DNA of 64,000 bases from Pseudomonadota bacterium (GTDB lineage: Bacteria; Pseudomonadota; Gammaproteobacteria; Steroidobacterales; MnTg04). A model generated the notes under the pieces. That model was not told the origin of the DNA, ran no database searches, and was given only the letters and a program-made list of their open reading frames with translations. This document shows positions 39,392 through 63,232 of this stretch, in pieces; the stretch's first letter is position 1; every line of letters begins with the position of its first letter. Location: assembly GCA_022572885.1 (NCBI GenBank), contig JACZVC010000007.1, positions 1 to 64,000 on the forward strand, given 5' to 3'. The position numbers and the translations under genes are program-made.

Positions 39392-42136
39392 CTACTTGAG
39401 GCGGCCGTGGCAATGCTTGTATTTTTTGCCCGAACCACACGGGCAAGGTACGTTACGACCGACTTTTGGCTGAACCCGGACAAACGGCACGGCCGGTTCG
39501 GAATCCTGCGCGGGCCGCCCCTGAGCGGTCGCGCCGGGCGCAGCAGGACTGCTGGCCTGGGCATGTTCAAATTTCATCCCGCTGGTATCCCGGCGCTGGC
39601 TTTCAACCGCGGCAACATCTTCTTCGCTGCGCACCTGTACGCGCGACAGTATGCTGATCGAATCATGCTTGATCGAGTCAAGCATGGACGTAAACATCCC
39701 AAAGGCTTCGCGTTTATATTCCTGCTCGGGGTTTTTCTGTGCGTAACCTCGCAGATGAATCCCCTGGCGGAGATAATCCAGCGCGGCCAAATGTTCGCGC
39801 CACTGTGAATCCAGCTGCTGCAACATCACGGCTTTTTCAAAATGGCGCATGACGGGTTCACCAATGGATTTCACTTTTTCTTCATAGGCTTCTTCCACGG
39901 CATCACAAATTTTCCCGCGCAGGTCTTCTTCGACCAGGTCGTCATCGGCGACCAGCCAGCCCTGGATATCGACCCGCGTCACGAAGTCGTTTTCCAGTGC
40001 CTGCGACAAGCCGGGAACGTCCCATTGCTCTTCGACGCTGCCGGGCGGCACGAATTTATCAATGACCTGGTCGACAACATCGCGCCGGATGGCGCGAATA
40101 TCTTCTTCCATGTCGGCGGCTTCCATCAGGCCGTCGCGCTGGTAGTAAATCGCGCGCCGCTGATCGTTGGCGACGTCATCGTATTTCAGCAGTTGCTTGC
40201 GGATATCGAAGTTGTGCGTCTCGACTTTTCTCTGCGCCCTCTCGATCTGGCGGCTCAACATCTTGCTTTCGATCGCTTCACCCTCGCGCATACCGACGCG
40301 TGACAGCAATCTCTTGACCCGCTCGGGATCGCCAAAAATGCGCATCAAGTTGTCTTCGAGCGACAGGTAGAAACGGCTGGATCCGGGATCCCCCTGGCGT
40401 CCGCTGCGACCGCGCAGCTGGTTATCGATACGCCGTGATTCGTGGCGCTCGGTACCGATAATCCGCAGACCCCCGGCATCGATAACGGTCCGATGTCTTG
40501 CTTGCCAATTCTCGGTGTGCAGGTTCTTCTGCGGCTCTTCGATCTCGCCCAGCGCCTGCAATTCACCCGCCAGGTTACCGCCCAGCACGATATCGGTACC
40601 GCGCCCGGCCATGTTGGTAGCGATCGTAACCTGGCCCGGCCGGCCGGCCTGGATGATCATTACTGCCTCGCGAGTGTGATGCTTGGCATTCAGGACCTGG
40701 TGATCGATATTTGTCTTTTTCAGAATACTCGATAAATATTCAGACGTTTCTATAGACGTAGTGCCAACCAGCACCGGCTGCGAACGTTTCTGACAATCCT
40801 GTATATCCTCGATAATCGCCTTGAATTTATCGTCGCGGGTCAGAAAAACCAGGTCCGGCTCGTCGTCACGGATCATCTCCATATGGGTCGGAATAACCAC
40901 GACTTCCAGCCCGTAAATCTGTTGAAACTCAAATGCTTCCGTATCGGCCGTTCCGGTCATGCCGGCCAGTTTGTCGTACATCCTGAAATAGTTCTGGAAA
41001 GTGATTGAGGCAACAGTCTGATTCTCCTCCTTGATCGCCACGCCCTCCTTTGCCTCGACGGCCTGATGGAGCCCGTCCGACCAGCGGCGCCCCGGCATGG
41101 TCCTGCCGGTAAATTCGTCGACGATGACGATCTCGCCCTGGTTGACGATGTAGTCCACATCTCTCTGGAACAAAGTGTGTGCACGCAAAGCGGCGGTCAG
41201 ATGGTGCATCAGGCGAATATTGGCGACGTCATAAAGGCTGTCGCCTTCCTTGATCAGGCCGGCCTGGGCCAGCAATTTCTCCACTTTCTGGTGACCCGCC
41301 TCGGTCAGGTGAGCCTGCTTGCTTTTCTCGTCGACACTGTAATCGCCCGGCGCTTCGATCTCGGGCGACGATTGCTCCCCCGGCACCATTTCCTGGCGTT
41401 CCAATTTCGGGACCAGCGCATTGATGCGCTGGTACAGGTCGCTGCTTCCTTCCGCGGGACCGGAAATGATCAGCGGCGTACGGGCTTCGTCGATGAGAAT
41501 CGAGTCGACCTCGTCGACGATCGCAAAGCTCTGGTCGCGTTGTGCCTTGTCGGCCAGCCGGAATGCCAGGTTGTCCCGCAAATAGTCGAAGCCAAATTCG
41601 TTGTTGGTGCCATAAATAACATCACAGGCGTAAACCGCGATTTTGTCGTCGGGATTCATCCCGCTTTTGATCACCCCGACCGTCAGACCCAGAAATTCGT
41701 AAATCGGCCTCATCCAGTCCGCGTCACGCTGTGCCAGGTATTCGTTAACGGTGACGATCTGGACGCTGTCGCCGCCGAGCGCGTTCAGGTAAGCGGGCAA
41801 GGTAGCGACGAGGGTCTTGCCTTCTCCGGTGCGCATTTCCGCAATTTTGCCTTCATGCAAAACCAGGCCCCCGATCAACTGCACATCGAAATGACGCAGG
41901 CCCAGGGTCCTGACCGACGCTTCACGAACAACGGCAAAGGCTTCCGGGAGCACCTCCTCCAGTGTTTTTCCGCTGGTTACCGCGGCCTTCAGCTGGTCGG
42001 TCCTGGCCCGCAGTTCGCTGTCACTCAGGGCCTGAAGATCCGCTTCATACGTCCCGGCTTTGGCTACGTCTTTTGAATAGTGCCTGAGCAGGCGCTGGTT
42101 GCGGCTGCCAAAGATTCGGGTAACGAAATTCTCCAT
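39392..42136 (-). CDS. secA: Protein translocase ATPase SecA
   Basis: Motor of Sec protein export at the inner membrane. It has 914 residues from ATG 42136, with GAGGAA eight bases ahead. It has two ATPase folds with the nucleotide motif [21 protein letters not shown], the [19 protein letters not shown] Walker B region, the helical scaffold, and the C-terminal zinc SEC-C motif [15 protein letters not shown]. No secM-like gene lies upstream; the M23 gene takes that place. A TAAAAT near 42240-42245 may be a -10 box, with no clear -35. Confidence 0.98.
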
Positions 42137-42300
42137 CAATGTTCCTCGTGGCACGCCCGGGTCAAACTGGTGGCAAAAGACCCCGTTTCAAGACCTGTAC
42201 GCAGCCAAGCGACCCACAGGCGCGGGGGCAAAGGGCAGTATTTTACGGATAAGCCGAGACTTTAGGTAGCTTGTTGTGGAGGTTTTTCAGGCCTGGAGAA

Positions 42301-43224: not shown

Positions 43225-43337
43225 GCCGCGCCCCGCTGTTTCAGATTCGATTGCAAGGCGGGCATAGCCTGGCGAACAGGCATCGACCCCCGGCAGGAAA
43301 CCGGCGGTACAAATCTGTAATGTTCAACTATCCTCAC

Positions 43338-43419
43338 ACTGGCAACCCCGCTATCCTAGGTATTCCCGTAGATCGGTGGTTTTGCGTCCCCGTCTTTCGG
43401 TGGGTTTGCTCTTTTCAGT
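43338..43419 (-). ncRNA. Cyclic-di-GMP-I (GEMM-I) riboswitch-like aptamer in the LytM gene leader
   Basis: On the minus strand an ACTG (43419-43416) pairs with CAGT (43341-43338) as P1. Inside, the GEMM-I core words appear in order: GCAAACC, a GAAA-containing hairpin, GGGACGCAAA, a second stem with ATCTA...TAGGAT, and TAGCGGGGTTGCC. The leader continues about 110 bases to the start at 43224. A CCCGC segment there can pair with the GCGGG around the ribosome site. The P2 stem has two mismatches as drawn. No U-tract terminator is seen, so control may be translational. Confidence 0.8.
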
Positions 43420-43489
43420 TCCACCAATATGCCGAGAAAATTTAAGTAAAACAAGCGATTAACCCAAATTTTGTGACCTGGTCCTCATT

Positions 43490-43822
43490 ATGAAAAAACC
43501 CTCGTTCCGATCGCTGGACAAAGTCCTGCGAGACAATAGCAGCGGGCTCTCCCGGGTAATCCACCAAGCCAGCCTAATGGCTGCCTTGCGCGAATCGGTC
43601 GCAGAACTGCTGCCGCAGGACCACCGCGCACATTTACACGGCGTCTCGCTGCAAGAAGATCAGAGCCTGACCTTGCTAACTGAATCTGCGGCCTGGGCCA
43701 GTCGTTTTCGTTATCTCGAGTCTACCGTTCGCCAGGGCTTGAAAACGAAAACCGGTCTGGCGATCGGTAGAATCATCATTAAAGTGCGGCCCCCAGCAAA
43801 TAATTCTCTTCCTGGCTCCTAG
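43490..43822 (+). CDS. DciA-family protein (DUF721)
   Basis: 110-residue DUF721/DciA domain protein. DciA is the ancestral loader of the replicative helicase DnaB in bacteria without DnaC, so it probably acts at replication initiation; that role is from family knowledge. The sequence fits with [13 protein letters not shown] at its start and [21 protein letters not shown] as the conserved core. It ends convergently with lpxC, overlapping four bases. It diverges from the riboswitch-led M23 gene. Confidence 0.85.
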
Positions 43823-44739
43823 ATTGCCATCACCGGCGTTGCATAGGAAATCGGCGATTCCGCGGCATCCTCAAAAGTCACTTCCTCCCATGCTTCCTGA
43901 TCGGCAATTAACGCTCTGAGTAATGCATTGTTTAGTGCGTGCCCTGACTTGTACCCGCTGAACTCGCCAATCAGGCTATGGCCAAGAAGATAAAGATCGC
44001 CGATTACGTCAAGAATTTTATGCTTGACGAACTCATCCTCGCAACGCAGACCGTCTTCGTTCAGCACCCTGAAATCGTCCAGCACGATGGCATTGCTCAT
44101 GCTGCCGCCCAAAGTTAGTTTCCTGGCACGTAAAGCTTCAATATCGCGCATAAAACCAAATGTTCTGGCGCGGCTTACTTCCTTGAGGAAGGAAGAGGTA
44201 GAAAAATCGATTGTCGATTCCTGCACATGGCTCTTGAAAACCGGATGGTCGAACTCGATCCGGAATTTGACCTTGAATCCTTCAAACGGAACGATCTGCG
44301 CCCATTTATCGTCCTCTACCACGCGCACCGGGCGCTTGATACGAATGAGCTTTTTCGCGCTTTTTTGTTCCTGGATGCCTGCCGATTGAATCAGAAACAC
44401 AAATGGCCCGGCGCTGCCATCCATGATCGGTACTTCGGGTGCGCTGACGTCGACGATCGCATTGTCGATGCCCAGGCCCGCAAACGCTGACAACAGGTGC
44501 TCCACGGTCGCGACGCGGGTATCTCCACTGACCAGGGTAGTACCCAGCATCGTATCGCCGACATATTCAGCCCGGGCGGGAATATTGACAACCGGATCCA
44601 GATCGACCCGCCGAAACACCACACCAGTGTTTTCCGCAGCCGGGCGCAGCGTCATAAAGACTTTCTTGCCGGTGTGCAGACCCACACCGGTGGCCCGGAT
44701 CGAATTTTTGAGCGTTCTTTGCCGCAATGAACTTACCAA
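43819..44739 (-). CDS. lpxC: UDP-3-O-acyl-N-acetylglucosamine deacetylase LpxC
   Basis: Committed step of lipid A synthesis. The 306 residues (from a TTG at 44739, or 302 from a TTG at 44727) start [20 protein letters not shown]. Zinc ligands are in [10 protein letters not shown] and [19 protein letters not shown], and the [15 protein letters not shown] stretch is typical. There is no ATG in frame before the domain, so the TTG start is likely. It is the last gene of the cluster, 200 bases behind ftsZ, as in most gammaproteobacteria. Confidence 0.97.
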
Positions 44740-62868: not shown

Positions 62869-63232
62869 AACAGCGGGGAGCCGGCCGATAAGCCGGGTTC
62901 TGTCTTGGGCAACCATTCATCTGGGATCTGCGTCGCCGCAGACCTCGAGCAACCTACCCGGGAACCCACGCGGGCCGCGCGTGGCAAAAAGCCTGTTCCC
63001 CTATTTGGTCTTGCTCCAGGTGGGGTTTGCCGTGCCGCGGAATGTTGCCACCCGCGCGGTGCGCTCTTACCGCACCGTTTCACCCTTGCCGGCGCCGTAG
63101 CGCTTAGGCGGTCTACTCTCTGTTGCACTTTCCGTAGGCTCACGCCCCCCAGGCGTTACCTGGCACCTCGCCCTTTGGAGCCCGGACTTTCCTCTGCACA
63201 AAAGTACAGCGATTGCCTGGCCGACTCCCCGC
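62869..63232 (-). ncRNA. rnpB: RNase P RNA (type A)
   Basis: Catalytic RNA that matures tRNA 5' ends. On the minus strand the 5' arm (63232-63219) and the 3' arm (62886-62873) form a 14-bp P1 helix with one G-T pair. Between them are the universal segments GAGGAAAGTCCGGGCTCC at about 63195 and the 3' run AGAACCCGGCTTATCGGCC. A run of T (about 62870-62865) follows the P1 arm, acting as the terminator. The ends are estimates from P1. Confidence 0.95.

Follow-up and report, generated by a model that had tools for sequence, protein, structure and literature searches.

A GEMM-I riboswitch with a recurrent change at its ligand-reading base upstream of an M23 cell-wall gene in Woeseiaceae and relatives

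The lpxC-dciA-M23-secA locus and its leader

The window, a 64,000-nt stretch of contig JACZVC010000007.1 of a gammaproteobacterial assembly (GCA_022572885.1), contains the gene order lpxC-dciA-M23-secA (Table 1). On the minus strand, lpxC is followed by the divergent dciA, a GEMM-I (c-di-GMP-I) aptamer, the M23 gene and secA. The gap of about 150 nt between the M23 gene and secA was found by a simple scan to hold no terminator-like site, and read-through into secA is therefore possible.

Table 1. Features of the window discussed in the text
Feature	Position	Strand	Basis
M23/LytM-domain membrane protein, 307 aa	42301-43224	-	PF01551 (112 bits), ortholog alignment, solved M23 relatives
secA, next gene downstream	39392-42154	-	PF07517 and others
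dciA, divergent, other side of the leader	43490-43822	+	PF05258 (33 bits)
lpxC, end of the dcw cluster	43819-44739	-	PF03331
GEMM-I (c-di-GMP-I, RF01051) aptamer	43338-43420	-	Rfam 71.6 bits, low variation among five species, covariation
Ligand-contacting position 20 (Vc2 numbering; Rfam column 11)	43410	-	A, consensus G; Rfam alignment, orthologs, order-wide scans
Promoter-like element TTGTTT-17-CATATT (GCATATT at 43426-43432)	43426-43454	-	Conserved GCATANT
Expression platform, 113 nt	43225-43337	-	One of several strong hairpins pairs with the ATG/SD region; U-run absent; folds of five species
RNase P RNA, bacterial class A	62873-63228	-	327.5 bits

The M23 protein is predicted, from reading of its sequence, to have a membrane segment at its N-terminus as well as a coiled region. 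Its zinc ligands (H206, D210 and H287) are those of the M23 family and are invariant in the ortholog alignment. A sequence-only reading of this DNA had proposed a peptidoglycan factor as the target; the M23 domain would make the protein a peptidoglycan hydrolase, and a catalytic position, the first His of the HxH motif, is Asn (Asn285) in this protein and in most aligned orthologs, so that the motif lacks one of its two His residues. The protein could therefore be an altered hydrolase or an activator. His is kept at this position in two M23 orthologs. No NCBIfam equivalog cut-off was reached by the protein, the nearest models being MepM, Pgp3 and ShyA.

The same reading had placed a GEMM-I element on the minus strand of the leader, from core words occurring in order and an ACTG/CAGT P1. 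These words and the P1 are present, and the RF01051 covariance model (Infernal/Rfam) matched the aptamer end to end (model positions 1-87 of 87), scoring 71.6 bits where the gathering threshold is 35, with E=4.6e-12 for the window as a whole; no other member of the clan outscored it. Two mismatches noticed in P2 were confirmed as AxC and CxA, and one or both are mended in the genus-mates. A47 (at 43383) and C92 (at 43342) are kept. The pair of bases by which both guanines would be read, G20 and C92, is represented by C92 only: position 20 is A in the M23 aptamers of all five species of the genus (the window and four genus-mates), a change from the consensus G that had escaped the sequence-only reading.

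Upstream of the aptamer, GCATANT was found at a distance of 10-25 nt in 25 of 31 leaders, as compared with 0.6% of background 45-mers. It is likely to be a -10 region, in which case transcription would be expected to start at the 5' end of the aptamer; the TTGTTT-17-CATATT element does not pass a simple sigma-70 scan. Downstream, 113 nt separate the aptamer from the ATG of the M23 gene. The earlier report of no terminator was upheld, as no intrinsic terminator lies on the minus strand between aptamer and ATG, and a U-run of 5 is absent from all 15 leaders examined. Control is for this reason probably exerted at translation or through Rho. Folds of the five genus species showed a strong hairpin covering the start region, and modelling of the bound and free states revealed no consistent change in accessibility there. 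Pairing of the 3' strand of P1 with the start region was considered as a switching device and rejected: long duplexes occur in 5/5 genus members, mostly no better than those of shuffled controls.

Conservation of the element and variation at position 20

The neighbourhood of lpxC, M23 and secA is common to the relatives. When RF01051 match coordinates were crossed with M23 orthologs, roughly half of 59 relatives proved to have a GEMM-I lying 60-270 nt upstream of the gene. With a model built from 27 orthologous M23-leader aptamers, the element was recovered in 80 of 123 leaders or loci, two of the 80 probably being named copies of genomes already counted (identical M23 proteins), and the families concerned, by GTDB, number nine or more within a single order (Woeseiaceae and relatives). 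A Woeseia sp. and an uncultured Woeseiaceae bacterium are among the named relatives, and the order is on this ground tentatively assigned to Woeseiales. The presence of the same element upstream of orthologs and intact pairing across homologs, both named beforehand as checks on the sequence-only reading, were thus obtained: in the 27 aptamers, 10 of 21 pairs have changed on both sides and 93.1% of cells pair, whereas none of 500 shuffles reached any of the measures and slid controls fell to 36-50%. Among the five species of the genus, the share of variable columns is 8% in the aptamer, rising to 35% in the leader downstream of it and to 55% at third codon positions. The link between GEMM-I and M23 is old and under selection. 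Several lineages were found to carry M23 with no element in the searched leader, as were more distant Cellvibrionales and Halieaceae-like loci; the M23 riboswitch is dispensable, since these lineages keep the gene without it. Degenerate remains of the aptamer were seen upstream of M23 at three loci (L051, L335 and L363), and one M23 ortholog leader was called as c-di-GMP-I-GGC. A literature search retrieved no paper joining a c-di-GMP-I riboswitch with peptidase M23, or Woeseiales with a riboswitch, and M23 is a conserved GEMM-I target, apparently undescribed.

Of the 80 M23 elements, 65 have G at position 20, 10 have A and 5 have C, the last group including two degenerate copies. An exact-core scan of 396 genomes showed A20 to be rare in the order, with 17 A20 and 2 C20 sites as compared with 411 G20 sites in 227 genomes. 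Ten of the 17 A20 sites are M23 leaders, five in the window's genus, four in genus g30 and one in genus g27. On the M23 tree, A20 must have arisen three or more times at this locus, even when strongly supported branches alone are considered. Among exact-core sites in the genomes whose M23 leaders were read, A20 accounts for 10 of 40 at M23 and 7 of about 184 elsewhere (Fisher p ~9e-5), a comparison in which sites are not independent and A20 genomes were deliberately among those chosen; counted by origins, there are about three at M23 and about four elsewhere. The enrichment at the M23 locus is suggestive. A scan of viral contigs with the A20 core gave no match. C20 occurs in the M23-leader GEMM-I of three genomes of g27 and at two non-M23 sites. 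A further genus, g48, has A20 elements upstream of other genes, two in each of two genomes, and in one of these genomes the two share a contig, with 1.26 kb between them.

The window's genome (2.76 Mb, 66 contigs) gave 15 matches, 12 of them above cut-off. Four are classic GEMM-I: that of the window and one each upstream of pilM, a secreted lipoprotein-like gene and a membrane protein. The pilM copy supplies the second link to pili that the sequence-only reading had drawn from nearby pilus genes; it has G20, points towards pilM, and is flanked on its other side by a divergent gene for a class A penicillin-binding protein. All other classic GEMM-I read in the five genus genomes, three in the window's genome and the rest in the mates, have G20 (counted by hand). 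The remaining matches belong, or come close, to the longer c-di-GMP-I-GGC type. Eight are long GGC-type elements spread over seven contigs, five of them above the RF03167 cut-off, and three are partial GGC-like elements, two of which (C14:2966 and C19:64236) are flanked by almost the same sequence, as though duplicated. Many of the eight long elements precede predicted secreted proteins, making up a second large riboswitch regulon in this genome.

Ligand of the A20 element and competing explanations

The element is a real riboswitch of a known class with a natural, recurrent change at its ligand-reading base. The explanation that we favour, with somewhat better than even confidence, is that it works as a GEMM-I-class cyclic-dinucleotide riboswitch, a c-di-GMP sensor loosened or re-tuned by A20, and sets expression of M23. 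A promoter of its own, lying between dciA and the M23 gene, would drive the riboswitch, which would set how much of the M23 cell-wall protein is made, probably by acting on translation or through Rho. In the genus, G would have been replaced by A at the ligand-reading base while the aptamer stayed under selection. Most likely, the A20 sensor would still recognise c-di-GMP supplied by the GGDEF proteins of the genome, but less tightly and less strictly, and the M23 gene would then respond at a different level than the G20 switch of pilM. In favour of this, the base has been described as governing selectivity without being a hard filter (PMC9262584), and weaker binding of c-di-GMP has been reported for mutants of the binding pocket (PMC9049102). 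Counting against this explanation, the model shows no change in start-region accessibility, P2 is weakened in the genus, and several lineages keep the M23 gene without the element; A20 might also stand for a change of ligand. The ligand, c-di-GMP, is what we infer, as are the mechanism of the platform, the direction of control (on or off) and the role of the M23 protein. Of the c-di-GMP control first proposed for this gene, the GEMM-I element itself stands on synteny, covariation and the conserved promoter-like element, but ordinary c-di-GMP sensing is insecure with A at the ligand-reading base.

Rare GEMM-I variants sense c-AMP-GMP (PMC7266159), and G20A GEMM-I takes cGAMP, the engineered form being used as a cGAMP sensor (PMC7288161, PMC6274999, PMC11352751). 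It is conceivable, though unlikely, that the A20 copies now respond to 3',3'-cGAMP, or to a different mixed dinucleotide, from an unrecognised enzyme, the M23 gene having left the c-di-GMP regulon; the altered position is the one that is changed in cGAMP-taking GEMM-I, and A20 recurs at the M23 locus in at least three lineages. However, pair 21-46, beside A20, is G-C in 27 of 27 aligned aptamers, as in Vc2, and not C-G as in the solved cGAMP switch (C15-G40 at the equivalent pair; PMC6274999). A known cGAMP synthase, whether a Hypr GGDEF or another, was also sought in the genomes. GacA-type Hypr enzymes have Ser in place of the Asp of ordinary GGDEF domains (PMC6456294). Nine intact GGDEF domains with GHxxGD were found in the window's genome. 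The last residue of this motif (PleD numbering), which we take to be the position concerned, is Asp in all nine. No Ser-type GGDEF was read in the five genus genomes and three other A20 genomes, a survey of intact domains with a readable motif in which some assemblies were incomplete, and no SMODS cyclase was found in the 13 genomes searched. Since neither a Hypr GGDEF among the domains read nor a SMODS cyclase was found, a re-tuned c-di-GMP sensor is preferred over a change of ligand. The more specific proposal, that the M23-locus GEMM-I has on three or more occasions exchanged c-di-GMP for 3',3'-cGAMP, or for some other mixed dinucleotide, as its ligand, is held to be a little less probable still; if true, it would imply an unrecognised cyclase tuning cell-wall remodelling beside the division cluster.

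About as improbable as that proposal is an ordinary c-di-GMP-I riboswitch whose function is unaffected by a neutral A20. A G11 mutant of Cd1 retained binding (PMC9262584), and G20 is described as less conserved than A47 (PMC9049102). Nearly all other members of the order nevertheless keep G20: of 60 additional GEMM-I from the order in which this position was read, 58 have G and one C, and a single apparent A comes from an alignment offset and is really G. The concentration of A20 at one locus likewise argues against neutrality. Decay of the riboswitch towards loss, with M23 expression independent of it, appears very improbable. The P2 mismatches and A20 in the genus would fit decay, as would the lost or remnant elements of related lineages (L051, L335 and L363), but the aptamer varies far less than the adjacent leader and third codon positions, and its pairing is partly restored in genus-mates.

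The locus connects a cell-wall gene on the dcw/secA border with a riboswitch of the cyclic-dinucleotide kind, within a gammaproteobacterial order (Woeseiaceae and relatives). Because its orthologous riboswitches naturally have G, A or C at the ligand-reading base, they provide matched same-locus pairs on which the evolution of ligand choice can be tested.

Comparison with known systems

EagA/MepM-type M23 proteins of Erwinia (PMC7705223) are M23 cell-wall proteins tied to c-di-GMP phenotypes, as is proposed here; the accessible part of that report describes no riboswitch leader, unlike that of the window's M23 gene. The Geobacter GEMM-Ib 3',3'-cGAMP riboswitches share with the window element the A at the ligand-reading position, whereas pair 21-46 is C-G in the solved cGAMP switch and G-C in the window element, and the target genes differ. 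Geobacter encodes the Hypr GGDEF GacA, of which no counterpart was found in the genomes surveyed here. Vc2 of Vibrio cholerae (RF01051) is alike in fold, conserved words, A47, C92, G21-C46 and position in a 5' leader, and the window element differs from it by A20 in place of G20 and by its M23 target at the dcw/secA border. The c-di-GMP-I-GGC riboswitches (RF03167) belong to the same clan and are present in several copies in the window's genome. In these copies P3 is long and pair 21-46 is C-G, and the window element is closer to RF01051.
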